Notes under the pieces: generated by a model | Database searches by the model: none | Seen by the model: the letters and a program-made list of their open reading frames with translations, nothing else | Told to the model about the DNA's origin: nothing | Part shown: positions 668 through 21,613 of the stretch, piece by piece | How positions within the stretch are numbered: position 1 is the first letter of the stretch | Layout of the letters: each line of letters opens with the position of its first letter | DNA from: a virus | Strand: one strand, 5' to 3' | IMG/VR virus record: IMGVR_UViG_3300035698_011776 | Coordinates: 1-27,763 of that record | DNA: 27,763 bases | Translations under genes and position numbers: made by a program

Positions 668-1513
668 ATGAAAATTGCTAGAGTTTTTCCAACAAAAACA
701 AGAATGACACCAAGAGACCCTCATGCATATTATGGATTGCCGCCACCATTTACACCGCAATATGATGAAATACATATCTCTGTAGTTTTTACATGGGATA
801 TTGAAAAAGCAAAACTGTGGGCAAAGTCTTGGAAAGAATATGGCAAGGTTAAAATAGGAGGTCCCGCAATGGGAGATCCCGGCGGAGAATTTACTCCGGG
901 GAAATATATGGCCAAAGGTGTTACCATGACTTCAAGAGGTTGTGTAAATAAATGTGGGTTTTGTTTTGTGCCAAAAAGAGAAGGCGGTATTCGAGAATTA
1001 AAAATACAGCCAGGTTATATTATCCAAGATAACAATTTACTCGCTTGCTCAAAGCAACATAAAAATAAAGTATGGGCAATGTTAAAAAGAGAACAATCAA
1101 ATTCAAGATTTGGCATCGAATTCCCCGGCGGTTTTGAAGCAGCAAGAGTTGATGATGATGTTGTTGAAAATTTAAGGGGTTTAAGGATTCATCAGATCTG
1201 GTTGGCTTATGATAATCCCGGCGCAGAGAAACCTTTAATTAAAGCGGTTAAGAAATTAAAACCTTATTTCCAAAATATTGATCGAATTAGATGCTATGTT
1301 TTAATTGGCTATAAAAATGATACGGTTGAAAAAGCAGAAATACGATTGCGTAGAACTTGGGAAATAGGAGCCTTACCTTTTGCAATGTTATATAGAGCAA
1401 ATGACGGCACAAAAATAACTGATCCAAAATGGTCTAAATTAAGAACGGCTTGGTGTGTCCCGGCAATTATAAAACCTAGAGAAAAAAATACCCCACACAT
1501 AAGTTATGAGTGA
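668..1513 (+). CDS. phage radical SAM protein
   Basis: 281 residues, ATG with AAGGAG four to five bases upstream. The radical SAM cluster motif CX3CX2C is present as Cys92, Cys96 and Cys99 (RGCVNKCGFCFVPKREG). These residues would ligate a [4Fe-4S] cluster that cleaves S-adenosylmethionine to a 5'-deoxyadenosyl radical. A PGGFEAA segment near residue 153 is compatible with the glycine-rich SAM-binding strand. The first 90 residues (VKIGGPAMG, FTPGKYMAKGVT) resemble the short N-terminal part of the phage radical SAM proteins rather than a full cobalamin domain. No second Cys cluster (SPASM) is obvious. The substrate is unknown; nucleotide or DNA modification is a guess. It converges on the late operon. 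Confidence 0.85.
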   Translation: MKIARVFPTKTRMTPRDPHAYYGLPPPFTPQYDEIHISVVFTWDIEKAKLWAKSWKEYGKVKIGGPAMGDPGGEFTPGKYMAKGVTMTSRGCVNKCGFCFVPKREGGIRELKIQPGYIIQDNNLLACSKQHKNKVWAMLKREQSNSRFGIEFPGGFEAARVDDDVVENLRGLRIHQIWLAYDNPGAEKPLIKAVKKLKPYFQNIDRIRCYVLIGYKNDTVEKAEIRLRRTWEIGALPFAMLYRANDGTKITDPKWSKLRTAWCVPAIIKPREKNTPHISYE

Positions 1514-6494: not shown

Positions 6495-9400
6495 TTATAT
6501 CCCATGTGCTTTCCAGCTAATAGTGCCGGTTCTTTCAGTAGCACCCCTATCTATTATTTTAATCGTTACTCCTTCTGTGTCAAGGCTCTCGTAGACCCAA
6601 TCAACAGCTTCACCAGAATTAATTTGAATATCTAGCTGAGGTGCCTCATGGAAAGTCTTAGCAAAAACGATATCAACACCGCTTGCTGCAACTGTTATTG
6701 TCCCTGTTCCAGTATCATCAATGTCTGGGAGATCAGCAATAATAACAAACGAACTTATTTGTAAAGCAATATCGACAGAATCCCTAGTTGTTGTCGCTCT
6801 TACTTGAAAATATCTACAAGTATAATCAGCAAAAGACCATTCCTCCCAATCGCTCCATGTTGAATTATCTTCAGATGTTCGGATTTCTACTAAAGTATTG
6901 CTTGGAGTTTCTAAGCCAGAAAATCGCATAGTTGCACTATCGTCAAACCGCCTTGTTGGATCTGAATCCCAACTTAAGGATTGATTAATAGTCGTAATTA
7001 TATTTACCATTACTCGGACATCACAAATATAGCCAAGATCTTTTATGGACGAATAATAAGCTTGCGATAATTCACCGGTTTCAAAGGCTAAGTTTGCGCT
7101 AGAAATATAATATCCACTACCTCCAGTTTCTTCTATAACTCTGAACATCATGTCAGAATCAGAAACAAGATTCCAAGTTAAGGTCCCGCCATTGTAACGT
7201 GTCATATTCCCATCAGCAAATGCCGATGAAGATAAGTCTGCTCTCCACGCAACATAAACAGTATCACTCTTAGTGTATCCACCCTGTAAAACAATCCAAT
7301 ATTTTGTTGATCCAGTTAAATCTACATTACTCTGCATTAAGAATCTTATCCACCGAGCAGTCATTCCGATAGAACTAGCCTCAACTGGGTAAGAAGTTGC
7401 AATAGGGGTGCCGTCAGGCTCGCCTGCGCTATCGCCTTCAATCGTAACCCAAATCTGATTAGTATCTGCTAATGAACTTGAACTAGAAGAACTCGACAAG
7501 CTAGATGAACTTGAACTCGACGAACTGCTAACAAACATAGAACTCGATGAACTAGAAGAACTTTCTGATAAACTCGAAGAACTTAAACTCGATGAACTTG
7601 AACTAGAAGAATTTAAACTCGATGAACTTGAACTCGAAGAACTCGATGAAACACTAGCATAAGAACTCGATGAACTCGATGAACTTGAACTAGAAGAATT
7701 TTGACTTGAACTCGACGAACTCGAACTAGAAGAATTTTGACTAGAACTCGATGAACTGCTTACTGATAAAGAACTTGAACTAGATGATGATGAACTTGAT
7801 GATAAAGAACTTGAACTAGAAGAACTCGATGAAAACACATTCCCTGTTTCTATAAGTTTAAGCATTACTTGTTCTAATGTTATAGCACTTCCCGGAGTAA
7901 AAGATTGAGCAAGTTTTTCATAATTTGTAGTAACAGCTCTTAAAGGATATTCACCATCTTCGGTTGCAACACAATAAATATCTGAATTGTCAAGCCAATT
8001 TGTATGTTCATTATAAGTTTCTACTATGTTTTGAAAAGGAATATTAGAAATTGTTATAACTGCTTCTGTTGCATTAACAGAATAGTTTCCAAAATTATCA
8101 ATCGCCTTTATCCAATAAGATTGATCGGTTCCTATTCTTATATCCGGTAAAGCATCTCTAACCCCGAACACAGGAGTTTTAACAATACCACCAGAATTCC
8201 AATCCGTCCCTTTTCTAATTTCATATTTTTGTACATCCGGCTCGCTTGACTTATCCCAAGAACAAAATAATACATCGCGATTTTTCTTAACAATAAAACC
8301 ACTAACAGCCGCAGGATTAGCATCTTTTCCAATAAGCCTTAATTGATCAGAAACAAATCCGTCAGAGTAAATTCGGTTATCAGAAATTGTTTTTATCCTA
8401 ACATTATAACCTTCGTTAAATTCAAGATCTTGCGTTATTACATAATGCGAAGTTGTCTTATTAGCATTAGTTACAAATAAATAGTCACCAAATTCTTTTT
8501 TTATTTCAAGAGTATACCCGACAAGCCTATCGTAACCGGTAGCGGGAGGTGTCCAATTTACATGTATTTGTGAAATATGAACTCCGTCAGCATTTCTCCA
8601 ACCAACTTCACTAAGAATAATACTAGAAACTTCGGCTATAGGAGCATAAGGATTCTCCGGAGAACCATAATCCCAATCCTGGAAAGAAGAACCATGCGCA
8701 TCGTTTAACAAAGAAGAATTATAAGCCTGGCAAATAAATTTTGCTTTGCCATATTCTGTTTCAGTTATTTCCATTACTCTAAATAATGCGGCTGTCCAAT
8801 TTGGCCTTGAATGGGTTACAGAAACAACGTCCATTGGTTCACAATGCAACGCTTGCATACCGCATTCAAACTCACACCATATATCATTTATTTTTGATTC
8901 ATACATTATCTTTCGGCCAATTCTTGACGCTTGGCTTTGACGAATAATTCCATTGCATTCGATAGTGCTATCGACAATTCCTCTAAAAACTTGATCGAGT
9001 TCATCTTCAATAACTTCAACTCGTTTTGGATTTTTACTTTCAAGCGGAGATATATATTCAACACTTAATTTATTTGCGTTTTCTTCTCCTCGGCCATATC
9101 CATAAGTAAAAGAATCTTTTAAAATATTATTTTCTGTAAAAGCCATAACTGCGGTTTCATTAGCTTTTTCGTATGCTATTTTATATTGCGTTCCACTTTT
9201 TATTAAAGAGGCATTACATGTAATAAGAATCCTAGAAAGGTTATCTAAAACAGATCCTTTTTCATCTATAACTAAATCAAGTTCATAGCGAGGTTCAGTT
9301 CCTCCGCTACCATTATTTATTTCTTCAGCGCAGTGTTCAAAAAAATCACCAAAACTTGCATTGTTAATAAATTTTTCATCTAAACCTGCTCCACCTAATA

Positions 9401-10085
9401 CTTGGCTTAAGATCAAATAATCTCTTATTACTGCGCTTGTATTTTTAGAAATATTTACTGCATTTGCTGTCCAGTTTTCGCTAGTCGAATTCCATGTTTG
9501 TATTTTTCTTCCTGTAAGTTCTACGGTAACTACAGAATTACTACTTACCTTTTCTCCTGCTTTTAAAGTAACTGCAACATAAGCAACATCCCTTAACCCT
9601 TTAACTGTCCCTGCTCCTCTTGAATCAACCGTTTGGCTTGAAGTCCCTAAGTATGCAGTATAACTACAGTCAGTAAAGTCTGCTATATCTTGATCGTCAA
9701 GTTTAACATTACTTATGGCCGAAACTTCTCCTGCGGAAATGGCTAAAAATCTTTGTACCGTTATGCCTGGTTCTGATTGCCAGATTATATTACCACCCAT
9801 AACCAGTGGCCCACCATAAACAAGCGGTAAAATTCCCGCATTAGAATAAGTATTATCAAGTCCGGGTCCATAACGGCTAGAAGTAGGTTTAGTTTTTTGG
9901 CGTTGAGATAATGAGTAAGCGATAGAAGCTACAGTCATTGCAGCTATAAATGGATGTAGCCAAGCATAGTCAACTATCCAAGCACCAACAGTCCAGATAA
10001 TTGTTATTGGATTTGCATGTGCTTGCCTAATGGCAAGCAATGTAAAGAAGATGAAGAACAAAAATATTTGTTTTAATTTTCCCAT
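6495..10085 (-). CDS. J-like central tail hub / tip attachment protein
   Basis: 1196 residues, overlapping the NlpC-like gene by 13 bases; the SD is weak. Hydrophobic segments lie at about residues 7-24 and 28-60, followed by RYGPGLDNTYSNAG and ILPLVYGG, a hallmark of J-type hub proteins. Residues about 70-470 form the hub. About 478-690 hold fibronectin III-like repeats (VNWTPPATGYDRLVGYTLEI). A beta-sandwich of the choice-of-anchor type starts near 725 (AQSFTPGSAITLEQVML). It is interrupted by a 120-codon Ser-rich tract (752-871) and resumes with IWVTIEGDSAGEPDGTPIA. The C-terminus (FHEAPQLDIQ ... GTISWKAHG) resembles tip lectin-like domains. It should form the trimeric hub that contacts the host and triggers DNA release. 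Confidence 0.88.
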   Translation of the reverse strand: MGKLKQIFLFFIFFTLLAIRQAHANPITIIWTVGAWIVDYAWLHPFIAAMTVASIAYSLSQRQKTKPTSSRYGPGLDNTYSNAGILPLVYGGPLVMGGNIIWQSEPGITVQRFLAISAGEVSAISNVKLDDQDIADFTDCSYTAYLGTSSQTVDSRGAGTVKGLRDVAYVAVTLKAGEKVSSNSVVTVELTGRKIQTWNSTSENWTANAVNISKNTSAVIRDYLILSQVLGGAGLDEKFINNASFGDFFEHCAEEINNGSGGTEPRYELDLVIDEKGSVLDNLSRILITCNASLIKSGTQYKIAYEKANETAVMAFTENNILKDSFTYGYGRGEENANKLSVEYISPLESKNPKRVEVIEDELDQVFRGIVDSTIECNGIIRQSQASRIGRKIMYESKINDIWCEFECGMQALHCEPMDVVSVTHSRPNWTAALFRVMEITETEYGKAKFICQAYNSSLLNDAHGSSFQDWDYGSPENPYAPIAEVSSIILSEVGWRNADGVHISQIHVNWTPPATGYDRLVGYTLEIKKEFGDYLFVTNANKTTSHYVITQDLEFNEGYNVRIKTISDNRIYSDGFVSDQLRLIGKDANPAAVSGFIVKKNRDVLFCSWDKSSEPDVQKYEIRKGTDWNSGGIVKTPVFGVRDALPDIRIGTDQSYWIKAIDNFGNYSVNATEAVITISNIPFQNIVETYNEHTNWLDNSDIYCVATEDGEYPLRAVTTNYEKLAQSFTPGSAITLEQVMLKLIETGNVFSSSSSSSSSLSSSSSSSSSSSLSVSSSSSSSQNSSSSSSSSSSQNSSSSSSSSSSSSYASVSSSSSSSSSSSLNSSSSSSSSLSSSSLSESSSSSSSSMFVSSSSSSSSSSLSSSSSSSSLADTNQIWVTIEGDSAGEPDGTPIATSYPVEASSIGMTARWIRFLMQSNVDLTGSTKYWIVLQGGYTKSDTVYVAWRADLSSSAFADGNMTRYNGGTLTWNLVSDSDMMFRVIEETGGSGYYISSANLAFETGELSQAYYSSIKDLGYICDVRVMVNIITTINQSLSWDSDPTRRFDDSATMRFSGLETPSNTLVEIRTSEDNSTWSDWEEWSFADYTCRYFQVRATTTRDSVDIALQISSFVIIADLPDIDDTGTGTITVAASGVDIVFAKTFHEAPQLDIQINSGEAVDWVYESLDTEGVTIKIIDRGATERTGTISWKAHGI
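7473..7832 (-). repeat. poly-Ser tract inside the hub (120 codons)
   Basis: Residues 752-871 are nearly all Ser, in runs of 7-10 broken by single L, V, Q-N, Y-A, M-F or E residues. Codons alternate between TCN and AGY. It sits inside a beta-sandwich domain rather than at its edge. Confidence 0.95.
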
Positions 10086-10498
10086 GTCGGCCTATAGATT
10101 GCGAATATTTTATGTTTAATATATTCTAATTTAGTTAAACATGAACCAACAATTAAGTGCATGTGTAGAAACTGCTTTCCTCCAATATAAACTCCCATTG
10201 CGCCTTTTGTTTTATGTGTTTTTAAAAGAATAATGTCGCCCGCTTTAATATTTTTAATTAAGACTTTTGTTGTAAATGTCCTTAAAGTGCTAATCATAAT
10301 AGGAACATCATATTTTTTATTTCTAAATATTGACATCTTAATATCATGTCCAGGAATTTCTTTATCATTTATTATTTTGTGATACAAATAAACAATCCCT
10401 CTGCAATCGCATCCTTCAATTGTAATTCCATTTAATTTAAAAGGAATGCCAATTAAAAAATTTAATTTATTTTCGCAAAGGGATGGAGTGAAATCCAT
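10073..10498 (-). CDS. NlpC/P60-like tail tip protein (K-like), His missing
   Basis: 141 residues. The ATG at 10498 is preferred because GAGGA lies about nine bases upstream; an in-frame ATG at 10519 has no SD. The fold signature is present: catalytic-type Cys32 in CDCRGIVYLYH, a GD turn at 87-88 (KAGDIILL) and the strand GVYIGGKQFLHMH. In active family members the residue before this strand is His (HxGxYxG); here it is Ala100. His112 and His114 follow in the usual LHH-like place. The family cleaves peptidoglycan peptide bonds during DNA injection. This copy may be weakened, or use another His. Position between the L-like and J-like genes is canonical. Confidence 0.72.
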   Translation of the reverse strand: MDFTPSLCENKLNFLIGIPFKLNGITIEGCDCRGIVYLYHKIINDKEIPGHDIKMSIFRNKKYDVPIMISTLRTFTTKVLIKNIKAGDIILLKTHKTKGAMGVYIGGKQFLHMHLIVGSCLTKLEYIKHKIFAIYRPTWEN

Positions 10499-11327
10499 GA
10501 TAATTGTCCTCGTTTGCATAAGTGTTTGTGCAAGTCGTTAGAGTTTTATCGCATCCTCTATAAATAGTATAAGTTTCTCCGGCTTGAATATAGTTTTCAA
10601 AAGCGTAATCAAGAGTTACTTGGTTTGTTGCAAAATCAAAATCAATAATTTTGCGCGATTGTCCTTTATTATCTCCAGATGTAATTTCTAATATTCCCCA
10701 ATTCCAATAATCATCTGCTTGCACTAAATTAATTGTATCTGTTAAGGTGTATAAAGAACCTCCTGTTGCTGTCCCTGTTATTTTATTTGCTGCAGTATTT
10801 TTATCTATTCGACAATATCTATCACCGAATTGAGCATTACAATTTATTTCATAATCCCAACCGCTTTGAATATCAAGAGATCCTAATTTAGGTACAGCAC
10901 TTGCGGACATTGATGTTTTTCCAAAGACAATAGCTTGAATGTAACCATCAAAAATAATTTTACAATCTGAAACGCTTTCAAGATTATCACGAAAAAGCAA
11001 CCTTGTTACTATTCGTTTACCCCTGAAATCGTTATTAGCCGCGTAAGAACCCATTGCCTTACTAACATTATCAACTTGATAAGATATTCTTTCTATTTCA
11101 TTTTTAGATGTTTTTTTAATTGCAGAACGATTAATAAAAAGCGGAGTATAATATTGTTCTGCTTCACTCACATAAGAAAAAAAAGTAAGTCCTTTATAAA
11201 AACCAACGAAATGAAGCGTATCAGCATCTTCATCTATTTGACTTCCTAAATAAATGTCGTGAATTTCTATTGGCTTTTTTTGTATTTGATCTTTTATTGA
11301 TGTAAGTAAAGCTGATAAACTATACAT
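10467..11327 (-). CDS. minor tail protein, L-like / DUF2163-type
   Basis: 286 residues, ATG with AAAGGA. The C-terminal half carries the Cys-containing pattern of this distal-tail family: CNAQFGDRYCRID, then GCDKTLTTCTNTY and a terminal YHGFHSIPLRK. In lambda-type tails the L protein binds an Fe-S cluster through such Cys residues. Seven Cys are visible, four of them in paired places that could ligate a metal. The N-terminal half is beta-rich (FVGFYKGLTFFSYV). The order M-like, L-like, K-like, J-like matches long-tailed phages. It should help form the tip ring under the tube. Confidence 0.78.
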   Translation of the reverse strand: MYSLSALLTSIKDQIQKKPIEIHDIYLGSQIDEDADTLHFVGFYKGLTFFSYVSEAEQYYTPLFINRSAIKKTSKNEIERISYQVDNVSKAMGSYAANNDFRGKRIVTRLLFRDNLESVSDCKIIFDGYIQAIVFGKTSMSASAVPKLGSLDIQSGWDYEINCNAQFGDRYCRIDKNTAANKITGTATGGSLYTLTDTINLVQADDYWNWGILEITSGDNKGQSRKIIDFDFATNQVTLDYAFENYIQAGETYTIYRGCDKTLTTCTNTYANEDNYHGFHSIPLRK

Positions 11328-11340
11328 TATTATCCTTTTA

Positions 11341-12135
11341 TTATGTGCTTAAACTAGAACTAGAAGAACTCGACAAGCTAGATGAACTTGAACTCGATGA
11401 TCCAGTAGAACTGCTTGAACTTGAACTTGATGCTATCGAAGAAGAAGAAGAAGAAGAACTTGAGCTTAAACTTCCAGAATAACTTGAGCTAGAACTCGAA
11501 CTAACGCTAATAGAACTACTTGATGAACTAGAACTTGACGAGCTAGAATTACCGTTTGTTGGAACATAATAATCCCACCTTACTTCTTTTAATGCCATAC
11601 CAGTATGAAGTAATTGATAAGCGGCCAAAACTCTTGTTAATTTATCTTCTTGGAACCTAACTCTAAAATAAAATTCGTGCGACAATAAAATTGTACCGCT
11701 CGCAGGGGGAGTATTAAAAACAATATAAGATTTTTCAGTAATATAATTATTAATTAAAGAATAACTAGTTTCCGCAACTCCGTCTACTGTACAAGAACTG
11801 TTGCCAGAAGTATCTACAGGGAAATTTGCAAGTAAAAAAGAATCTTCTGACGCGTCACCAACGCCTACAGGTTCGTTTGTAACTATATATTCATGTTCTA
11901 TTTTAATTAAAAAATCATCCTTAGAACCTTGTCGTTCAATAAAAAATTCCCAGATAACATCCATTGCTGCTTTTGTTAAAAATTTGCAAGTTAGTTTATA
12001 ATCTCTTATTCCATCATCCCATAAAGAATCCCTATATTCTTTACCACTTTCAGATTCGGTTATGTTTGTTCTAAATGAAATCGATTCTTCTAATCCAAAC
12101 TCTGGCGTTAATGATAAAATATGATTATATCCCAT
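11341..12135 (-). CDS. distal tail protein, M-like / DUF2460-type, poly-Ser tail
   Basis: 264 residues, ATG with AGGA. Residues 1-196 are the folded part. EYRDSLWDDGIRDYKLTCKF and DVIWEFFIERQGSKDDFL follow the pattern of the DUF2460/minor-tail M family, which links the tube to the hub. FYFRVRFQEDKLTR and the final ALKEVRWDYYVPTNG close the domain. Residues 197-264 are a Ser tract with scattered I, V, Y, G, L, A and T that ends two residues before the stop (LST). The folded part is complete without it, so the tail is an appendage. Its DNA shares a 41-base identical block with the hub tract. Confidence 0.72.
   Translation of the reverse strand: MGYNHILSLTPEFGLEESISFRTNITESESGKEYRDSLWDDGIRDYKLTCKFLTKAAMDVIWEFFIERQGSKDDFLIKIEHEYIVTNEPVGVGDASEDSFLLANFPVDTSGNSSCTVDGVAETSYSLINNYITEKSYIVFNTPPASGTILLSHEFYFRVRFQEDKLTRVLAAYQLLHTGMALKEVRWDYYVPTNGNSSSSSSSSSSSSISVSSSSSSSYSGSLSSSSSSSSSSIASSSSSSSSTGSSSSSSSSLSSSSSSSLST
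11344..11547 (-). repeat. poly-Ser tract, C-terminus of M-like protein
   Basis: 68 codons, dominated by Ser with mixed TCN/AGY codons. A run of TCT codons (+ strand GAAGAAGAAGAAGAAG near 11441) is the only homogeneous stretch. Confidence 0.93.
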
Positions 12136-12139
12136 TTTA

Positions 12140-14065
12140 TTATCCTAATTTTTGAGAGGTTCTGCGCAATGAAAGATTATCCCTGATACCTCTTTCGCTT
12201 GCACTTGTATATATATCTCCATGACGTTGTAGATGTTCTCTGAACGACTTAACATCAATAGTATTTATATTGTAAGTATTCCCACCACCATTACCACCAA
12301 CACTACTTTGTCCATTATTTAATTTATCAAGATTGCCAACACCGATAGTCCTAGTAGCTTGACGATTTAAAACATATTCACCTGACAATAAAGTGGCCGG
12401 AACTTCTCCACCGTTATGAAATTTCTGCCGAGGACGCATTCCGTAAGCCATGCCTTCTCTTACCGCACCTCCGGTATGAGAAAAACCTAAAAATCCACCT
12501 GCACCTGCACTCTTTAAAGTATTCATTATTATTATATTCGCAATAACTTCCATTATAGATGCAAGCATCTTATCGCCGAAAGCAACAACAGCATCGCTCA
12601 ACCCTTGCATGTCGCCTTTAACAGCATTCACAAATCCATCTTTAAGCATATCTCTTGAGCCTATAGTAAAATCGGATAGCATTGATTGAGTTGCTCCAAT
12701 TAATTCTAAAATACTCTGCTCGGATTGTTTCCCTTCTTCTGATATAGCAAGGATTCTTTTTTTTCTTGCAGCCTCATTCTTTTTCGCTCCTGCTTCAAGT
12801 TTTGCATAAGAATCAATAGCATCCTCACCCAAGTTTAATATTTCTTTACCCATTTGCTTAACGGATTCCTGAGAATTTTCCGCCATAAAACCCATTGTCG
12901 TACCAAACTCTTTTGCTCTTTCAGACGCATCCATTAAAGCCTCGGCTTGATTTTTTAATCCGGGAATAAATTCAGCAACTTTCGCGAGCATTTCAATAAA
13001 GTGAGCAGCGTTATTTGCAAGAGAGGCAAAACTACTAGCAACACCGGCCAAGAACACATGCATTGATATCATAAAAGTCATCCATACTGCTCTTATCGTA
13101 GTAATTATTCCAATCATTCCTGCGCCAATCTTTAACCAGACACTATAAAAACCATTTGAACTTTCAGTTGCATCTTCAACTGAACCTTGCATTTCATTAA
13201 AACTATCACCAATCATCCCAAGGGCAGAAGCAACGACAGGAGATTTAGTTATTATAAAACCAAGCGATTCTTTAAAATCTCCTACGGATTGATTTGTTAT
13301 ATCTACCGTTCCTTTAAAGGTAGCTCCTAAAGCTTCGGCTGTTCCGCCAACACTCCTTTTTATATCTTTAAGAATATCGTCAAACTCTCCATACTTTTTT
13401 GTAGTTTCGGAAAGATTAACACCTGAGCGTTGTAATGTAGAAACTTGGCCATCAAAAGCTTGCCCTAAAATCCTTGCGGTTGCAGTCAAATCTTTAGTTG
13501 AGCCATCTGCCTTACGAGTTCCGGCATTAAGATCTAAAAGTGCCGGAGTAGCTTTTCTTATCTGAGCCTCAGTTAATCCAAAACTTGCAAGCATTCCTTG
13601 TGATGCAATTATTTGATCATCACCATAGCCAGTAAGTTTTTGTAATTCACTTGCATAATCCTGCAGTCTTTCGGCCGAGCCTTCGGTAGCTTTCCCTGTA
13701 GCATGGAATGCAGAGGCTAAACGAATTTCAGCATTTTCTTGTGTCATGGCCGCGGCAGTTAAATCTCCCACAATTTTCATAACAGGACGCATGATAAAGA
13801 AATAAACAAGTAACTTGTTTCTTAAAGAACCAATAGCGCCTTCTAATGCGGCTATTGATCTACCTTGCATCCGAGCTTTTCGACCAGCTTTTTCATGGGA
13901 TTGGCCCATTTTCTCAAGATCAAGTTGTGTTCCTTTGCCTACGGTTTTGAGAGCGATACCCATTTTTTTGGCACTATCTGTCATGGCCTTATTAGCGGCA
14001 ACAAACTTATTTGTAGCTTCGTCTTTAAATGTTAAATAGACTTTAAATTTTTCGTCGTCGCCCAT
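12140..14065 (-). CDS. tape measure protein
   Basis: 641 residues. ATG at 14065 is chosen because AAGGAGC lies seven bases upstream; a TTG two codons earlier is too close to that site. The N-terminus is helical and rich in Lys/Ala (KAMTDSAKKMGIALKTVG). About 80-270 matches tape-measure repeats (AEIRLASAFHATG, DDQIIASQGMLASFGLTEAQ, ATARILGQAFDGQVSTLQRSG). Hydrophobic segments at about 308-360 suit the membrane-inserting part. The C-terminus has the typical HTGGAVREGMAYGMRP and LLSGEYVLNRQATRTIG. It fixes tail length and exits before DNA. By the usual ratio of about 0.15 nm per residue the tail would be near 95 nm. The gene is the largest between chaperone and tip genes, as expected. Confidence 0.92.
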   Translation of the reverse strand: MGDDEKFKVYLTFKDEATNKFVAANKAMTDSAKKMGIALKTVGKGTQLDLEKMGQSHEKAGRKARMQGRSIAALEGAIGSLRNKLLVYFFIMRPVMKIVGDLTAAAMTQENAEIRLASAFHATGKATEGSAERLQDYASELQKLTGYGDDQIIASQGMLASFGLTEAQIRKATPALLDLNAGTRKADGSTKDLTATARILGQAFDGQVSTLQRSGVNLSETTKKYGEFDDILKDIKRSVGGTAEALGATFKGTVDITNQSVGDFKESLGFIITKSPVVASALGMIGDSFNEMQGSVEDATESSNGFYSVWLKIGAGMIGIITTIRAVWMTFMISMHVFLAGVASSFASLANNAAHFIEMLAKVAEFIPGLKNQAEALMDASERAKEFGTTMGFMAENSQESVKQMGKEILNLGEDAIDSYAKLEAGAKKNEAARKKRILAISEEGKQSEQSILELIGATQSMLSDFTIGSRDMLKDGFVNAVKGDMQGLSDAVVAFGDKMLASIMEVIANIIIMNTLKSAGAGGFLGFSHTGGAVREGMAYGMRPRQKFHNGGEVPATLLSGEYVLNRQATRTIGVGNLDKLNNGQSSVGGNGGGNTYNINTIDVKSFREHLQRHGDIYTSASERGIRDNLSLRRTSQKLG

Positions 14066-14788
14066 GTTCAAGCTCCTTTAGTGGATTATCTTTATTCTCT
14101 GCCATTGCTGAATCTAATATATCAAATACTTGCATTATTTTATTTGGCTGTTCTTCTGAACCCCCAGAAAAAGGTAGCCATCCTTTTTTATACCGATTGT
14201 ACATTCTTATATAATCATTTATTTGTGAGGGTAATTCTTTTGCCGGACATCTTTCAGTGAATTTTACTCCATCTACTTCTATCGGTTGCATCGGAGTATC
14301 TTCACACCCTCTAAATTTCTTCAGGCCATCGTTACAATTCTGGCAGCTTAAGCCCAGGTTAGATAATATAACTGCCAGTTTTATTTTTTTTCCTCTTCCT
14401 CCTTGACATTGTTACTGCCCCAAATTTCCATAGCAAGTTTATGGATAGCATACAACGGAATCATTTTTAATGAATCTAAGGTTACGACATCCAAATCTTG
14501 TTTTGCAACTTTTTCTTTTTCAAAAATAAGTTTAACTTCTTTGCCTTCTAATATCCAATTTCTAGTCCCTTTAAGACCGTACTTACAAATTTCAAAATCA
14601 TTACTTACGATATCATCGCCCATTGAATAGACAGGTTTTCCGTCAACAATTTCAAGGGTTCCTACACCGGCTATTACTTTTGACGCTAATACAGAATCAA
14701 GAGATCCAATAATCCAAATAGTAGGATTCTCTTTATCTGATTCTAATGTATATTCTCTTGTCAGTCCGACTGCAATAGGATCTATCAT
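14043..14788 (-). CDS. tail assembly chaperone frameshift fusion (GT-like)
   Basis: A -1 slip at A AAA AAA (14384-14390) joins the 135-residue chaperone to 113 further residues. The new frame runs without a stop from 14384 to TAA at 14043-14045, giving about 248 residues. The extension starts IKLAVILSNLGLSCQNCNDG and continues through GCEDTP and MQPIEVDG to TERCPAKEL and a helical tail (NDYIRMYNRYKKGW). It contains Cys pairs CxxC, GC and RC that can form one metal site. Starting at the ATG at 14291 would lose three of the four Cys, and that ATG has no SD. Lambda gpGT works the same way: its T part binds the tail tube protein. The end overlaps the tape measure start by 23 bases. Confidence 0.82.
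14340..14404 (-). promoter_or_regulatory. programmed -1 frameshift signal
   Basis: Three elements follow each other on the minus strand. An SD-like AAGGAGG lies inside the coding region at 14398-14404. Seven bases later comes the slippery heptamer A AAA AAA (14384-14390), part of a run of eight A. Five bases after that a stem-loop starts: CTGGCAG (14372-14378) pairs with CTGCCAG (14340-14346), extended by one G-U and one A-U pair. The zero-frame stop TAA sits directly after the heptamer. The same three-part layout drives frameshifting in E. coli dnaX. Confidence 0.85.
14381..14788 (-). CDS. tail assembly chaperone, zero-frame product (G-like)
   Basis: 135 residues, ATG with AAAGGAG eight bases upstream. 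The sequence is acidic in its C-terminal third and ends WGSNNVKEEEEKK just before TAA. It lies immediately upstream of the tape measure, where lambda gpG, which coats the tape measure before tube assembly, is found. The last codons GAA AAA AAA are the slip site for a -1 frameshift that extends it into the next frame. N-terminal GLTREYTLESDKENPTIWIIG resembles the chaperone start found in many siphophages. The family call rests on position plus the frameshift signal. Confidence 0.8.
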   Translation of the reverse strand: MIDPIAVGLTREYTLESDKENPTIWIIGSLDSVLASKVIAGVGTLEIVDGKPVYSMGDDIVSNDFEICKYGLKGTRNWILEGKEVKLIFEKEKVAKQDLDVVTLDSLKMIPLYAIHKLAMEIWGSNNVKEEEEKK

Positions 14789-14800
14789 TACTAAACTCCT

Positions 14801-15286
14801 TTATTGTGTTATTCTTAAATGTTTTTTTTTGGATTTTATTCCTTGGCTTTTTACCCAACGAGCAAATCTATCTCTCGTCTTTTTAACCATTTCATTAGAC
14901 ATGCCTAAAAATCTTCTTATAGTTTTTGAGTGCTTATTCACTCCCTCGTTTTGATGAATATTTCCAACGAAATCTCTACGAGGAATACCTCTTGAAATAA
15001 CTCTCACTTCAACATTATTCTTTGTTGATTTATATGCATGTACTGCGTTTAACATTACCCCCTTTCTAATCAGAGCCTTAGTCGGCGTTTTAGATTTTGC
15101 TTTTTTCTTTGCTGCTATGGTTTTTTTAGTAAGAGGTGCATAAGGCTTTCCTTTTATATCAATTTGCGCTCTCATGTTTTTTTGAATATCTCGAACAATA
15201 GCATCCCCTATTTGTTTTAAGGGGATGCTCGCATCCTCATAAGATGGTTCAATTAAATCAGCCTCTATCTTAATACCAAAACTCAT
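14801..15286 (-). CDS. virion morphogenesis protein, Mu gpG-like / tail completion
   Basis: 161 residues, ATG with AAAAGGAG. The pattern DIQKNMRAQIDIKGKPYAPL followed by TKKTIAAKKKAKSK is that of the phage virion morphogenesis (Mu gpG / tail S) family: an amphipathic helix, then G-x-P-Y/W-x-P-L and a Lys-rich helix. A second signature lies at HSKTIRRFLGMSNE, where members have RxFLGxS. The C-terminus is very basic. Such proteins complete the head-tail connection or the tail tube end. Its place between the tube protein and the chaperone agrees with this. Confidence 0.78.
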   Translation of the reverse strand: MSFGIKIEADLIEPSYEDASIPLKQIGDAIVRDIQKNMRAQIDIKGKPYAPLTKKTIAAKKKAKSKTPTKALIRKGVMLNAVHAYKSTKNNVEVRVISRGIPRRDFVGNIHQNEGVNKHSKTIRRFLGMSNEMVKKTRDRFARWVKSQGIKSKKKHLRITQ

Positions 15287-15300
15287 AAAGCTCCTTTTAC

Positions 15301-16281
15301 TTAAGTGCTAGATGAAGAACTTGAAGAACTCGAACTTGAACTAGAGGCCATCGTTAATGTAAGTTCATCATTTCCACTATCAGAATTTTTACAAATTTCA
15401 CACACCGCATTAACAACCGCGATTCCACCTCTATCTCCAGCTTTTTGAGTGATGTATCTTACTGCCGGCAATGAGAATGTTGTTTTATTTCCTTGCGAAT
15501 CACCAAGAACAATTGTAACGGCTGCAGTCGCTCTTGATAAAAGCTTGCCGATAAAATCATGGCTAGACATTGCAACAAGTTCTGGATCAAAACTCATTTG
15601 CGGATTACGGCCAGTTACTTGAGCATAATTAATCCCACTAGCATCAGACGGTAATGCAGAAAGCACAATTTCATTTTGCATATCTATTTCGAGATTATCT
15701 AAAACCAATGTGCTTCCTAATATAGTAACACTTGCACCCATAAATAACATAGGTACTTGAGCCGGATATGTAGGAGAAAGCATAGCCTCGTCAGCATGAC
15801 TTGCATATTTTCCTTGCATTGCAAACTCACACATTATCGGTTCGCCAACTTTCATCTGGAATTTAACATTCCCAGCACAACCAAGCATATTCTTTCTAAA
15901 ACCATCAATGTAATGCGCGATAGAACCAGTTACAAAGCTTGATGAAATAGGAACAAAGATATTAGAAACTCCAACATCTAATGTTTCAGAAAATCCGCAC
16001 ATTCTTAAAAAAGGACTTATTGGTGTAGTAACTCCTTTTGCCGTTGTTAAAGGCCCCATTAATTCAGCTTTAAAAGCAAGATCCATCTTCCTAGCTCCAA
16101 CTTCTGAAGCAAACCTCGACATGTGTTTTGTTACTGGATTCCTTTTAAACATTTCAGGGGACAAATCCATTACCGGTTCATACACAAGAATAGTAGCCTC
16201 TGTTGCTGTTAGCGTTTCTGCTGTTCCGGCTACTGATTCTACTTTACCTGCCAATTGAGCAATTCTAGTAATCTTACCCAT
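15301..16281 (-). CDS. major tail tube protein with short poly-Ser end
   Basis: 326 residues, ATG with AAAGGAGGG. The order tail terminator, this gene, morphogenesis protein, chaperone, tape measure identifies the tail tube subunit. VESVAGTAETLTATEATILV near the N-terminus is the usual opening of phage tube proteins. The rest is beta-rich, with a plausible second half in VPMLFMGASVTILGSTLVLD. The last 15 residues are AS with 13 serines in a row and T. The tube is a polymer of many hexamers, so even this short tail would appear in well over a hundred copies on the virion, if exposed. The C-terminal end of many tube proteins lies on the outside. Confidence 0.85.
   Translation of the reverse strand: MGKITRIAQLAGKVESVAGTAETLTATEATILVYEPVMDLSPEMFKRNPVTKHMSRFASEVGARKMDLAFKAELMGPLTTAKGVTTPISPFLRMCGFSETLDVGVSNIFVPISSSFVTGSIAHYIDGFRKNMLGCAGNVKFQMKVGEPIMCEFAMQGKYASHADEAMLSPTYPAQVPMLFMGASVTILGSTLVLDNLEIDMQNEIVLSALPSDASGINYAQVTGRNPQMSFDPELVAMSSHDFIGKLLSRATAAVTIVLGDSQGNKTTFSLPAVRYITQKAGDRGGIAVVNAVCEICKNSDSGNDELTLTMASSSSSSSSSSSSST
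15307..15345 (-). repeat. 13-codon poly-Ser tail on tube protein
   Basis: Thirteen consecutive Ser codons of mixed type, one residue before the stop codon. Confidence 0.95.
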
Positions 16282-16293
16282 ACTTCCCTCCTT

Positions 16294-16752
16294 TTAGAAA
16301 ATACGTCTTTCTGTTATTGATAAATTTATCTCTACCATATGGCAAAGAATATCTCCGAGTTTACTCATCTTAATTTCACCTACTACAGGCATAGTTATTA
16401 TCTCTGCCTTACCGTTCAAAGTAGGATTATCCATAAAGGCTTCACAAATTGGTTCAACATAGCTATCTTGAAATACTTTATCACTTCCTGCGCTATCATC
16501 TAAACCATAAAAACCTCTTACAATAAAATTGTGTGTCGGCATTTCTACTCCCCCCGATCCACCTCTTTCTTCCCGGGAAAATCCATTTCGTTCAATCTCC
16601 CAAGTATTAACTTTCCTACTTCTTATAAATAAATCTTTATATGTAGCGAGATCATTACAAAAACGCTTATAATCATAGACGGTTCCTATTTCAGCAGTGA
16701 TAACCGTTTCTATGAGAGTTTTTATTTGAGATCTGATTAGGCTAAGTGACAT
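16294..16752 (-). CDS. tail terminator / U-like minor tail protein
   Basis: 152 residues. ATG at 16752 has no clear SD; the frame stays open upstream but offers no better start codon. The N-terminal helix (SLIRSQIKTLIETVI) is followed by a beta pattern with MPTHNFIVRGFYGLDDSAGS and VEINLSITERRIF at the end. This is the alpha-beta layout of lambda gpU-type terminators that cap the tube and meet the head connector. The gene sits between the connector and the tube protein, the canonical place. An 88-base gap precedes it, the longest in this part of the operon. Confidence 0.65.
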   Translation of the reverse strand: MSLSLIRSQIKTLIETVITAEIGTVYDYKRFCNDLATYKDLFIRSRKVNTWEIERNGFSREERGGSGGVEMPTHNFIVRGFYGLDDSAGSDKVFQDSYVEPICEAFMDNPTLNGKAEIITMPVVGEIKMSKLGDILCHMVEINLSITERRIF

Positions 16753-17575: not shown

Positions 17576-17893
17576 TTACTTCGCGCTAGAGCTTGATGAA
17601 CTCACACTCTTTGACGAAGAAGATGAACTTGACAAACTGGAACTAGATGAACTTGAGCTTAGAGATAATGAACTCGAAGAACTTGAACTTGAGGAACTCG
17701 AATAATAAGTTACCCCATCGTCTTTTGCTTTTCGGTTCGGCACACCTCTATCTAAAACTCCCTTGCGATAATATAGAATGATGTTACATTCTTCTTTTCT
17801 AAAGTTATATGCTCCGCAAGCTTCGTTCTCACAAGTTATACCGGCCCCTGCATTGTCGTTTTTAAACGGACATAAATAACTAGGTGCTGACAT
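17576..17893 (-). CDS. Cys4 mini-protein with poly-Ser tail
   Basis: 105 residues, ATG with AGGAG. Residues 1-64 contain Cys8 (CPF), Cys21, Cys26 and Cys36 (ITCENEACGAYNFRKEEC), likely a zinc or Fe-S site. YYRKGVLDRGVPNRKAKDDG follows, then YY and a 41-codon Ser-rich tract with L, K, V and a terminal AK. A folded knob of about 60 residues on a serine stalk is an unusual combination. It lies between the head surface candidates and the connector, so it could be a head- or neck-associated accessory protein. The Cys pattern is shared with the protein at 3834-4193. Confidence 0.6.
   Translation of the reverse strand: MSAPSYLCPFKNDNAGAGITCENEACGAYNFRKEECNIILYYRKGVLDRGVPNRKAKDDGVTYYSSSSSSSSSSSLSLSSSSSSSSLSSSSSSSKSVSSSSSSAK
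17579..17701 (-). repeat. poly-Ser tract, C-terminus of Cys4 protein
   Basis: 41 codons. Ser runs of 6-11 are broken by L, K and V, with mixed codons. Confidence 0.93.
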
Positions 17894-17905: not shown

Positions 17906-18535
17906 TTAAGTTTTGCTTGAGCTAGATGAAGAACTCAAACTGGATGAACTACTTAAACTACTAGAACTTGAACTACTACTCAAACTAGATGAACTAGAGC
18001 TTGAAGAACTGCTCGACAAACTAGAGCTTGAAGAACTCGATGAAGAACTCGACAGGCTTGAAGAACTTGAAGAACTCGAACCAATACTTGAGCTTGAAGA
18101 ACTACTTGAGCCAATATAGCTTGAACTTGAAGAACTACTCAAAGACGAACTCGAAGAACTCGAAGAACTCGAAGAACTAGATCCTGTACCTGTAACATTT
18201 GGAGAAACAGCATACCAATAAGTTCCACTACACCAGAACTCAACAGTATCAAATGCCGTCATATTTATATAATCGTAATTTACTCCTCCACCACCAAAAC
18301 CACCGGAAACATAAACTCGCCCGGCAGAATCATCTGCATGAACAACTAAAGTAACGCCTTTAAGATTACCGCTCGCTGCCGGCAAAGTTAAAACAGCATT
18401 ACCACTTAATTTAATGAAAGAATATCCAGAACGGAAGATATCATCCTCTGTCAAAGAATAATCCGCTGCTTTTTCAAGAGCGGTTCCTCTCATTTGTGCT
18501 AAAAAATATTTAAAGGTTAATTTCTTACCTGCCAT
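17906..18535 (-). CDS. small head/surface protein with poly-Ser tail
   Basis: 209 residues, ATG with AAGGAGG. Residues 1-118 form a domain with AALEKA-like start (KYFLAQMRGTALEKAADYSL), LTPAASG-type strand LTLPAASGNLKGVTLVVH, then VYVSGGFGGGGVNYD and FWCSGTYWYAVSP. Residues 119-209 are a Ser tract with L, I-G and Y-I breaks, ending KT. Its neighbour downstream of the capsid gene (18588-18938) has the same domain without the tract. Two small paralogs just after the major capsid gene are typical for decoration or head-surface proteins. The exact role is inferred. If it decorates the head, several hundred serine tails would surround it. Confidence 0.65.
   Translation of the reverse strand: MAGKKLTFKYFLAQMRGTALEKAADYSLTEDDIFRSGYSFIKLSGNAVLTLPAASGNLKGVTLVVHADDSAGRVYVSGGFGGGGVNYDYINMTAFDTVEFWCSGTYWYAVSPNVTGTGSSSSSSSSSSSSSLSSSSSSSYIGSSSSSSSSIGSSSSSSSSLSSSSSSSSSSSLSSSSSSSSSSSLSSSSSSSSLSSSSSLSSSSSSSKT
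17909..18181 (-). repeat. poly-Ser tract, C-terminus of head surface protein
   Basis: 91 codons, Ser with L, I, G and Y. The antisense strand reads as Glu/Leu/Asp codons and creates a false acidic ORF. Confidence 0.93.
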
Positions 18536-18587: not shown

Positions 18588-18938
18588 TTAAGAGGCAGCT
18601 ACCGCTTCAGACATTGCATACCAATAAGATCCATCACACCAGAACTTAGAAGTACAATATGCGCCAGGGGTTACTGTGTCATAATTTGCTCCACCGCCAC
18701 CAAATCCACCGGAAACATAAACCGTTCCTGCGGCATCGTCAGTATGGACGAGAAGGCTTACGCCTTTTAAAGAACCACTTGCGGCTGGAAGAGTAAGCTT
18801 AAAAGCACCATCAACAATTATAAAACCATTCCCATCTTTGAGAATGTTATCTTCTGTTAAAGCTGTGTCCTCAGTGATAGTCTTAGCTGTTCCTCTTTTT
18901 TCAGCAATAAAATATTTCATTCTTGAATACTTTGCCAT
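18588..18938 (-). CDS. small head/decoration-like protein, no Ser tail
   Basis: 116 residues. ATG at 18938 is preferred because AAGGAG lies eight bases upstream; an in-frame ATG at 19022 would add 28 residues that run through a stable hairpin. The sequence matches the neighbour at 17906-18535 along its whole length: KYFIAEKRGTAKTITEDTAL, LTLPAASGSLKGVSLLVH, VYVSGGFGGGGANYD, FWCDGSYWYAMS. It ends EAVAAS where the paralog begins its serines. Gly-rich SGGFGGGG is the most conserved segment. It follows the capsid gene, as decoration proteins often do. No named family was recognised. Confidence 0.65.
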   Translation of the reverse strand: MAKYSRMKYFIAEKRGTAKTITEDTALTEDNILKDGNGFIIVDGAFKLTLPAASGSLKGVSLLVHTDDAAGTVYVSGGFGGGGANYDTVTPGAYCTSKFWCDGSYWYAMSEAVAAS

Positions 18939-18985
18939 GATCTTCTCCTTGTTAATATTAAGTATTTTGCGACCTAACAGGCTGT

Positions 18986-19010
18986 GCCGAGAGGAACCAA
19001 TCCCCCCGGC
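18986..19010 (-). other. stable GC-rich hairpin after capsid gene
   Basis: On the minus strand GCCGGGGGGA pairs with TCCTCTCGGC: ten base pairs, two of them G-U, with a five-base loop. It starts 18 bases after the capsid stop codon. No T run follows, so it is not a classic terminator. It is by far the most GC-rich stem seen in this AT-rich sequence. It could protect the 3' end of a capsid mRNA or set a processing point. Confidence 0.55.
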
Positions 19011-19027
19011 CATCGCCATCAATTAAT

Positions 19028-21613
19028 TTAAGATACTATTCCACCTGCGAAAGCGCGGAAGTCTGTTACTGCTCCACCGTATTCATGGCGAACTTTGTAA
19101 CGAATCGTATCATAGACAAATACATTACCAACCGTAGGCTGATCTTGTACTAAGATTTCCGGATCTTCTCTACCGTTTAAGAAACCCATTTCGATACCTT
19201 CTACATCAGCTAATTTAGATGACAGATAAAAGTTATTCTCGTCACCACGAAGGTAAGGAGTAACTGTAGGATCAAAAGAATCGCGAATAGAGTTAACTCC
19301 TCTTTCCATACTCTCTGGATTAAACTCAGATTTTTTCAACTGCATTGCAGTTCCACGCAAACTTCTTGGAACCCACAAATTCGGATTTTCAAGAGCAAGC
19401 ACCTGCGTTACTTTATAAACATCAACGCCCTGCGCATGTTCTGCTGCAGTTGTGCCATATACTCCTCTGGCAATAGTCAATGTATCTGTAGCAACAGAAT
19501 CTACACGACAAATTTCTCCGGCCATCCAGATTAAGTCGCCAGCTTTGAAATACTGACCGTCCCCGGTAGTCACAACAAGAGCTGTTCCGCCTGCAGTTAG
19601 AGGATCATCAACAACGTCAGTTTTTGTACCAAATTCTACTTGATAATACATATCATCAAGTAAATCTGACAGAGAATCATACCCTAATGCAACTGTACGA
19701 TAATTCTTATGTCCGGCCACAAACATCACAAGACCATCATAAATCGTAGCTACATTTATTCCAGTAGTACTATATCCAATCATCAGATCAAATACAAACT
19801 GGTTTAAAGTCTGAGCCGCTGCTTTTCCAACTTTTCCAGGGATAGCTGTCAATACTTTAAGATCATCGTCAATAATCATACGACGAGTTAAGGTAACGAT
19901 TCCACCCTTGGTTGCTACGGCGTAAGTTGCCTCTTCATCCGTAGGAAAACCGAGTTCTGGATAACTAGGAGTGGCTGAATCTATTGGTGTTCCGGCAACC
20001 GTTCTCGCATTCTGAACAGTAGGAAGTACACCAAACCCGCCCCAACGAATTCTTTCTTGCAATTTAAAATCCTTAATAGGAACAGATGTTGCAATCTTTT
20101 TCCATTGAGGATCAATAGCTTTATAAGCAGGCAACATTCTTCGTTGCATTGAATATCCTAATGCATAAGAAAAATCACCTTCAGTTGCTTCTTGTAATCT
20201 TGCCATAGCTTTCGGCCCAACGCGTCCAGTTATGTTTGGATCATCTGTAAAAGCAACATAAGCTTCTTTTAAAGAAGTAAATCCATCTATTCCTTCAAAG
20301 TCCGCTTTTTCTTCTTCTGTAGGATTATGCCCAAGCATTATATCCATAGAAGCTTGTAACTTAGTTACTTGATCTCTTTGTACAAAAGAGCCGTCATTCC
20401 CACTACCAAGATCAATAATGGATTGACTTTCAACTAACTGAGCCAATGTTGTTCTTTCAAGCTTAATTGATTCTTTAAGCTCTGCTTCTTTAAATACCTT
20501 GCCGTTAAAACTCTGACGGATTTTATTCCGTACAGGCATAGGTAAATTAGATTCACTCAAAGCAAGATCAAGCATTTCTTTACATTCGCGCTGTTTTAAC
20601 TTAGCTTCTAAACTAGTAAATTTGCTTTCAAGATCTTTATTTGTTGCATCCAAAGCATCTTGTTTTGCTTTAACCGCAAGATCATCGGATTCTTTTTTCT
20701 TCTTAAACATTAATTCTTTTTTCTTTTTCAACTGCTCTGGAGTAAGGATAGCATCATCCGCTTCCATTAAATCTGCATCATTCTTTTCTTGTTCGCCTTC
20801 AACAAGAGTTTTAAATAATGTTTCAGCTTCTTCAAACTTTTCACCTTTTATACTTGCTACGATTGATTCAATCGCTTGAGCATTTTCTGATTTTTTATCT
20901 ACAGCATCTTTAAGCACAGATTCAAAAATCCCAACAACTTCTTCTTGAGTTATATTTTCAATGTTCACATTCTCAAGTAAGTTAGGTCGCCACGCCTTAA
21001 GAGCTTCTAGCAACTTTTTAAACATAATTTCCATTCCTCCTGTTTTGTTTAAGCTTTCGACGAGAGCCAATAACCCGCCTCCGGCCGCTGGTTGAGTTAC
21101 GAAGTCTGTACTAAAAACTTTAGTAATCGCTTCAACAACTGTTATTGGCTGTCCATTTAACATTCTAACACTTGACGGTCCTTCGGCATTTATAGATAAT
21201 CCTAATAGATTTTTCAACCCTTTCTTCCAAGCTTCTGATAGCATTTGCTTTAATTCTTGAACTTTAGAACTTTTTTCAAGAAGATGCAAATACCCTGTAA
21301 GCCCGGACACCTCCCGGCCTTCGACGGCGAATGTTTCAAATTTAACGCCTTCCAACCAACCGGCAGTCTGTAAAGGGAATCCTTCAGGACGCATTTTTTC
21401 AATAGACATAGGCATGTGGTCGAACTTATTGTCCTTCCACTCATAAAAACAAACTTTAGATTTTTCAAATAATTGGATTGATTTCTGGAGAGCTTCTTTC
21501 GCGTAATACTTACCATTTTTAGACAGGCCTTCTTCAATTATAATGACCTTCCAAACATTACCTTTTTTTGAACTTTCAAGAAAGGTAGTAATTCCAAATT
21601 GATTTAATATCAT
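19028..21613 (-). CDS. prohead protease - scaffold - major capsid fusion
   Basis: 861 residues, start ATG overlapping the previous stop (ATGA). Residues 1-180 are a capsid maturation protease: LSKNGKYYAKEAL, His66 in FDHMP, QTAGWLEGVKFE, and Ser140 in LLGLSINAEG, then TDFVTQPAAGGG at the domain end. Residues about 197-400 are a charged coiled-coil scaffold (QLKKKKELMFKKKKESDDLA). Residues about 410-861 are an HK97-fold capsid protein with an inserted beta domain (FKAGDLIWMAGEICRVDSV, LTIARGVYGTTAAEHAQG) and the Mu gpT-like end FLNGREDPEILVQDQ ... YKVRHEYGGAVTDF. The three parts are usually separate genes. Auto-cleavage must release the capsid part. A second start at 21025 may make scaffold-capsid alone. 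Confidence 0.87.
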   Translation of the reverse strand: MILNQFGITTFLESSKKGNVWKVIIIEEGLSKNGKYYAKEALQKSIQLFEKSKVCFYEWKDNKFDHMPMSIEKMRPEGFPLQTAGWLEGVKFETFAVEGREVSGLTGYLHLLEKSSKVQELKQMLSEAWKKGLKNLLGLSINAEGPSSVRMLNGQPITVVEAITKVFSTDFVTQPAAGGGLLALVESLNKTGGMEIMFKKLLEALKAWRPNLLENVNIENITQEEVVGIFESVLKDAVDKKSENAQAIESIVASIKGEKFEEAETLFKTLVEGEQEKNDADLMEADDAILTPEQLKKKKELMFKKKKESDDLAVKAKQDALDATNKDLESKFTSLEAKLKQRECKEMLDLALSESNLPMPVRNKIRQSFNGKVFKEAELKESIKLERTTLAQLVESQSIIDLGSGNDGSFVQRDQVTKLQASMDIMLGHNPTEEEKADFEGIDGFTSLKEAYVAFTDDPNITGRVGPKAMARLQEATEGDFSYALGYSMQRRMLPAYKAIDPQWKKIATSVPIKDFKLQERIRWGGFGVLPTVQNARTVAGTPIDSATPSYPELGFPTDEEATYAVATKGGIVTLTRRMIIDDDLKVLTAIPGKVGKAAAQTLNQFVFDLMIGYSTTGINVATIYDGLVMFVAGHKNYRTVALGYDSLSDLLDDMYYQVEFGTKTDVVDDPLTAGGTALVVTTGDGQYFKAGDLIWMAGEICRVDSVATDTLTIARGVYGTTAAEHAQGVDVYKVTQVLALENPNLWVPRSLRGTAMQLKKSEFNPESMERGVNSIRDSFDPTVTPYLRGDENNFYLSSKLADVEGIEMGFLNGREDPEILVQDQPTVGNVFVYDTIRYKVRHEYGGAVTDFRAFAGGIVS
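21023..21041 (-). promoter_or_regulatory. internal ribosome binding site and ATG in capsid fusion
   Basis: AGGAGG (21036-21041) lies ten bases before an in-frame ATG (21023-21025) at codon 197, exactly between the protease and the scaffold. Initiation here would give a 665-residue scaffold-capsid protein beginning MFKKLLEALKAW. Another in-frame ATG at 21034 is too close to the SD. Confidence 0.5.

Follow-up and report, generated by a model that had tools for sequence, protein, structure and literature searches.

The window, which is the whole stretch of 27,763 nucleotides that was analysed, is the IMG/VR virus record IMGVR_UViG_3300035698_011776. It derives from a tailed phage whose genes encode a central fibre J-like hub, a BR0599-type tail assembly protein, a DUF2460 protein, a capsid protein, an SPP1-like portal and a terminase, together with a tape measure protein that gives only a weak match. 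Six genes of the window contain serine tracts, which amount to ~600 residues in total (Table 1).

Table 1. Serine tracts, the genes that carry them and the 41-base block in the window.
Feature	Position	Strand	Remarks
Tail hub / central fibre J-like protein, 1196 aa	6495-10085	-	phrog_31 central tail fiber J, E 9.8e-52; PF13550 Phage-tail_3
120-residue Ser tract inside the hub, interrupting a domain	7473-7832	-	Same domain split at the same site in G1, G3, G8, G9
41-base block, hub-gene copy	7480-7520	-	C-terminal end of the hub Ser tract; identical to 11357-11397, in phase
DUF2460 tail protein with C-terminal Ser tail	11341-12135	-	PF09343 DUF2460, E 4.2e-20
65-residue Ser tract, C-terminal tail of the DUF2460 protein	11353-11547	-	
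41-base block, DUF2460 (M-like) copy	11357-11397	-	C-terminal end of the DUF2460 Ser tract; recurs in IMGVR_UViG_3300025669_000303
13-residue Ser tail, putative tail tube protein (gene 15301-16281)	15307-15345	-	Role from gene order; no family match
39-residue Ser tract near the C-terminus, small protein (gene 17576-17893)	17585-17701	-	Orthologues tailed in G1, G2, G4, G5, G7, G8
89-residue Ser tail, capsid-adjacent protein (gene 17906-18535)	17915-18181	-	Tailless paralogue 18588-19022 (repeat D8)
Terminase large subunit, clade marker	24296-25909	-	phrog_5989, E 3.2e-17
Ser tract of at least 278 residues, gene before terminase	26921-27754	-	Runs to the window edge; 27-, 87- and 114-base tandem periods

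Several other features of the window deserve mention. The tailed and tailless paralogues lie side by side next to the capsid gene, and this arrangement is repeated in the relatives G1 and G2. The capsid protein itself (19028-21613, minus strand, 861 aa) is apparently fused to a maturation protease, as judged from PHROG and Pfam matches. On the plus strand at 26921-27763, the antisense of the Ser/Leu tract is an open, coiled-coil-like frame of E, L, D and K, in which TCN is read as E or D, AGY as L and TTR as K or N; automatic annotation may thus call the wrong strand here. A 281-residue protein (668-1513, plus strand) has a CVNKCGFC motif like that of radical SAM enzymes and no Pfam match at 1e-3, and a collagen-like GADGADG protein with a 36-base tandem repeat (YTPVKxVDYFDG) lies at 2269-2691 on the minus strand.

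Serine tracts are a property of a phage lineage. A terminase search defined a clade of relatives at 52-71% identity, all of which have serine tracts save L015, a 4.3 kb fragment, and distant terminase relatives (26-28%) have none. The sites of the tracts are common to the clade members examined: after the 'ywyal' region of the capsid-adjacent protein, at the ends of the small cysteine-containing protein, the putative tube protein and DUF2460, and inside the gene before terminase. In five phages, the window among them, the hub tract interrupts one domain at an identical position; G2, G4, G5 and G7 have a hub that lacks the tract-split domain. The longest tract reaches 909 residues. Serine tails are not private to the terminase clade, because a scan for the serine-codon pattern also finds them in other phage contigs, many of which, among the matches listed, carry the tail on one large protein only. 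The scan identified 79 loci among the matches listed, with tracts in at least two genes in 27 and in one gene in 50. Thus, the tail itself is more widespread than the clade, and its genome-wide use is the striking part. Judged by portal protein, the closest phage in culture is Microcystis phage Mae-JY22 (36% identity); the 22.6 kb of it that were examined contain no tract.

The tracts are maintained as serine by selection, given that 79-100% of the codon changes between orthologous before-terminase tracts are synonymous (for example, 116 against 27 and 39 against 0) compared with ~21% expected from single-base changes, a share that is biased somewhat upward by the choice of tracts as serine-rich. 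Gly, Pro and Thr are nearly absent. The codons are drawn from a narrow set, as AGT, TCA, TCT and TCG make up more than 90% of the serine codons in the window tracts, and neighbouring AGY codons are strongly avoided (16 observed versus 69 expected in the window), most strongly in the window, G9 and L033. The longest run of one identical codon is only 2-6 in 14 phages, in tracts of up to 909 residues. The tracts therefore do not look at present like products of simple codon slippage, and tandem-codon slippage was rejected as their description.

In the relatives, the gene before terminase adjoins a sugar cluster, which lies upstream of it in eight phages (G1, G2, G3, G4, G5, G6, L027 and L011), the clade members with sequence extending far enough. 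The linkage is known from the relatives only, because the window ends before any sugar cluster; in G9, ~6 kb upstream of the tract gene contain no glycosyltransferase and the contig then ends. The cluster contents were read from Pfam matches in G1 and G2, which include a DegT aminotransferase, RMNT_CmcI (rhamnosyl O-methyltransferase type), an NAD-dependent Epimerase, LicD, CTP_transf (cytidylyltransferase-like) and many methyltransferases, and the cluster was recognised in the other six phages by relatives of two glycosyltransferases. Sequence searches with these glycosyltransferases against the PDB and PHROGs gave nothing useful except a methyltransferase domain, and only the predicted folds are thus informative. 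The GT8-like protein has a conserved LDADMIF-RDP motif and a predicted GT-A fold (mean pLDDT of the model, 60), with WbbM (Z 12.7), GlyE (Z 12.1) and LgtC (Z 11.9) as its nearest structures. The GT9-like protein (A2) is modelled with a mean pLDDT of 81, and its C-terminal half resembles the GT9 heptosyltransferases WaaF (Z 12.7 over 120 residues), TibC (Z 11.8) and WaaC (Z 11.4). The substrate of GlyE is a serine-rich-repeat adhesin, whereas TibC attaches heptose to a protein serine.

What is the biological function of the serine tails? The tracts would form long, presumably disordered serine tails or linkers on virion proteins, and these may act as an O-glycosylated scaffold whose sugars come from the cluster adjoining the tract-rich gene. 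O-glycosylation is our best guess for the tails because gene adjacency, predicted fold and acceptor chemistry point in the same direction. A serious rival, which we consider possible although not the favoured reading, is that the tails serve simply as flexible spacers or for solubility and do not accept sugars. Sugar genes serve other purposes in many phages, some of the tracts link domains (the DUF2460 copies of G3, and L011), and bacterial enzymes that process polysaccharides often contain polyserine tracts (PMC6821194). However, a linker does not need to be all serine, selection has kept serine specifically with scarcely any Gly, Pro or Thr, and the sugar cluster is near in all eight of the clade members that extend far enough. 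Extending the glycosylated-scaffold reading, we put forward tentatively that the lineage coats its particle with phage-made sugars on the serine tails of at least five virion proteins, and that the tails recombine as cassettes interchangeable in length and sequence.

The putative glycosylated tails resemble several known systems in part. Serine-rich-repeat glycoproteins of Gram-positive bacteria, such as PsrP with GlyE, have long serine-rich regions and linked glycosyltransferase genes. The phage clade has long serine-rich regions as well and, in the relatives, linked genes for putative glycosyltransferases, of which the GT8-like enzyme is predicted to be structurally near GlyE. However, each serine-rich-repeat glycoprotein is an individual bacterial adhesin that has mixed Ser-X repeats and uses accessory secretion, whereas the carriers in the phages are many proteins of the tail and capsid region with nearly pure serine. 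The GT9-type fold of A2 likewise recalls TibC and the autotransporter adhesin heptosyltransferases as well as WaaF, but only the C-terminal half of A2 aligns well. Among phages, a passage of PMC12363180, citing Freeman et al. 2023, describes phage-encoded glycosyltransferases that modify capsid and tail tube proteins in mycobacteriophages Che8, Corndog and Myrna. Like the clade, for which phage-encoded glycosyltransferases are predicted, these are tailed phages; their glycans are proven by experiment, whereas the clade of the window is known here from sequence and predicted folds. The clade also differs from the mycobacteriophages as described there in its putative acceptor, which would be serine homopolymers spread over five to ten genes, and in its GT8-like and GT9-like enzymes within a larger sugar cluster.

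Nearly pure serine tracts that recur in many genes of one genome are also found in polysaccharide-degrading bacteria (Teredinibacter, PMC2699552; survey, PMC6821194). There they are linkers of secreted enzymes, whereas in the phages they are mostly C-terminal tails on structural proteins, with lengths of up to 909 residues. In a 2019 survey of low-complexity regions, the largest one in phages had 115 residues, and alanine, glycine and proline were the most enriched residues (PMC6821194). The polyserine described here, in at least five genes per genome, lies far above that maximum. A literature search found no report of polyserine in phage virions, although one may exist. If the tails are glycosylated, they would constitute a genome-wide scaffold for virion sugars, with the enzymes encoded alongside. 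The lineage-wide polyserine tails of virion proteins beside a sugar cluster are of more interest than the single repeat that drew attention to them, to which we now turn.

The first-pass annotation had noticed that the hub and DUF2460 tracts share an identical block in the same codon phase of the serine frame. The observation is correct: the two copies agree at all 41 bases, and identity stops precisely at both ends. Ungapped extension yields 47 identities in 49 positions (repeat family D4), and the shared stretch thus covers only ~49 bases of the 360 of the hub tract and the 195 of the DUF2460 tract. Past the block, the hub tract continues for seven bases, and the DUF2460 frame runs for a few codons to its stop. 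After the block, the longest match that any pair of the six tracts has in common is 23 bases, and the best third site in the window agrees with the block at no more than 34/41 positions. Within IMG/VR, the exact sequence occurs only in this phage and in the near-identical record IMGVR_UViG_3300025669_000303, in which the DUF2460 copy is unchanged and both of its flanks recur; that record stops short of the hub copy.

Could such a block arise by chance? The narrow codon set and the strong alternation of TCN and AGY codons might make a 41-base identity unremarkable. Nevertheless, the longest match never exceeded 24 bases in 400 synonymous-codon shuffles, and shuffled synonymous or independently drawn codons typically gave longest matches of ~15-16 bases, with a maximum of 29 in 400 trials. 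An order-1 Markov null that retains codon pairs reached at least 41 bases in 2 of 10,000 trials when fitted on all tracts, in 6 of 10,000 when fitted on the two tracts including the block and in 0 of 10,000 when the block was left out of the fit. Corrected for the 15 tract pairs of the window, the codon-pair null leaves the block a chance of about 1% at most. A three-codon Markov null reached 41 bases in 43-315 of 10,000 trials (0.4-3%), which argues for coincidence. However, it predicts a mean longest match of 24-29 bases, whereas 12-23 are seen in the remaining pairs of tracts in the window, and it was set aside as overfitted and too permissive.

The codon-pair null was calibrated on 179 within-genome pairs of tracts from different genes in 14 related phages. 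It is centred (mean z 0.14), and most pairs resemble independent draws from one shared codon usage. Only three pairs are clear exact-match outliers: one in G2 (50 nt, z 8.5), the block of the window (41 nt, z 7.2) and one in G7 (37 nt, z 4.5). We therefore regard coincidence as unlikely. The identity exceeds what protein-level selection explains, as the first-pass annotation had argued, and 41-base matches are rare (0-6/10,000) in the shuffle null preserving dicodon use that it had named as a possible refutation. Its further claim of recent copying between the two tracts is supported by the same null and by the outlier status of the pair. Relative to the age of the clade, the copying is recent, because ~40% of codons have changed synonymously between orthologous tracts compared with none of the 13 in the block.

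Does copying homogenise the tracts generally? A plain comparison of exact matches within and between genomes gave too large an excess, since codon-pair use varies from genome to genome, and it was dropped in favour of the calibrated codon-pair null and a mismatch-tolerant score with between-genome controls. With mismatches allowed, z exceeds 3 in 13 of the 179 within-genome pairs (7.3%) and in 57 of 2087 pairs from different genomes and different genes (2.7%), which corresponds to an odds ratio of 2.8 and a p value of 0.0026 that is optimistic because tract pairs are not independent of each other. Part of the within-genome signal reflects shared periodic units, given that between-genome pairs of different genes also exceed the threshold. 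Homogenisation within genomes is thus modest and affects a minority of pairs, and the copy event in the window is real, yet rare for its kind. As in gene conversion or concerted evolution, non-allelic tracts have come to share identical DNA beyond the needs of protein selection, but here most tract pairs have remained independent.

The first-pass annotation went further and saw in the copying a means by which the tail spreads from gene to gene, so that the block would be the footprint of the birth of the newer tail. The excess similarity between tracts of different genes within a genome is in keeping with this proposal, as is the likeness of the DUF2460 and before-terminase tracts in the G2/G4/G5 subgroup. 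However, orthologues in other phages carry tails at the same sites as those of the window, including the hub site, which the window shares with four of them. Both block-carrying tracts consequently predate the copying, neither is new, and the copied stretch is a small part of each. With most of the 179 within-genome pairs looking independent as well, spreading is unsupported as an account of the tails and improbable, a little more so than coincidence; for the hub/DUF2460 pair, it is largely refuted already. Spread of the tails before the ancestor of the clade is possible. The copying that we observe exchanged segments between pre-existing tracts.

An assembly artefact, in which short reads of one tract were used at both places, is very unlikely. 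The tracts are repetitive and the window breaks off inside one of them, and comparison of G2 with G13 reveals in-frame deletions in two tracts, 318 and 54 bases long and located at exact repeats of 92 and 41 bases. These may be real deletions or assembly collapses; as the repeats at the junctions allow collapse, the deletions are not used as proof of recombination. Nonetheless, 41 bases lie well inside the usual read length, the hub copy is bordered by hub sequence at both sides, and the DUF2460 copy recurs with both flanks in the second record. The weakest proposal is that the block is a nucleotide element (an RNA structure or a recombination or packaging site) held identical by selection, which the placement of both copies at the 3' end of their tracts would suit but which is hardly credible, since the confinement of the exact sequence to this phage and its near-identical record means that no relative has kept the block.

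Thus, we propose that the block results from a recent copy between two pre-existing tracts and that the tracts are selected serine tails, most likely a scaffold for O-linked sugars; we give this joint reading a probability of about two-thirds. In this event, ~41-49 bases would have been copied recently between the serine tracts of two tail genes in one genome. Many short words, such as TCGAGTTCA, are common to the tracts and make ectopic exchange between them easy, and the copying, in either direction, may have occurred during phage replication through ectopic recombination (gene conversion or reciprocal recombination) or template switching. Copies would survive because swaps of one serine codon for another leave the protein almost unchanged. 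Repeat-driven recombination of this kind could lead to an occasional exchange of tract segments. As to the machinery, RecT, Erf and RecA are absent from the ten proteins of the G2 early region, and, as regards a diversity-generating retroelement with its reverse transcriptase and adenine-directed variable repeat, the only RT-named Pfam match in the genes scanned is the RNase H-like RVT_3. The block represents DNA exchange between tracts in one genome and bears both on the evolution of low-complexity tails and on the trust to be placed in assemblies of such genomes.

In the strain pair L009/L010, one 990-base tract has accumulated 6 substitutions and 5 in-frame indels, compared with 0 substitutions in 18 kb outside, and four other near-identical pairs (L012/L013, L025/L026, L028/L029 and L017/L018) exhibit no excess change inside tracts.

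The other records provide several minor observations. The complete-looking genomes G1, G2, G3 and G13 (63-71 kb) have 127-base terminal direct repeats and are probably circular assemblies. The sole match in the genome collection, the 67 kb contig L044 from a bin of 1.9 Mb, was rejected as evidence for a host: it has 127-base terminal repeats as in a complete phage, no other contig of its bin has the serine-tract pattern, and it thus probably belongs to a phage and was binned together with DNA unrelated to it. In G3 (IMGVR_UViG_3300031716_000007, 10289-16412), the DUF2460 gene is present four times, each copy with a serine linker followed by more sequence. In L153 (IMGVR_UViG_3300002053_000083), a 1610-aa open frame has three serine tracts, one of them 881 residues long.
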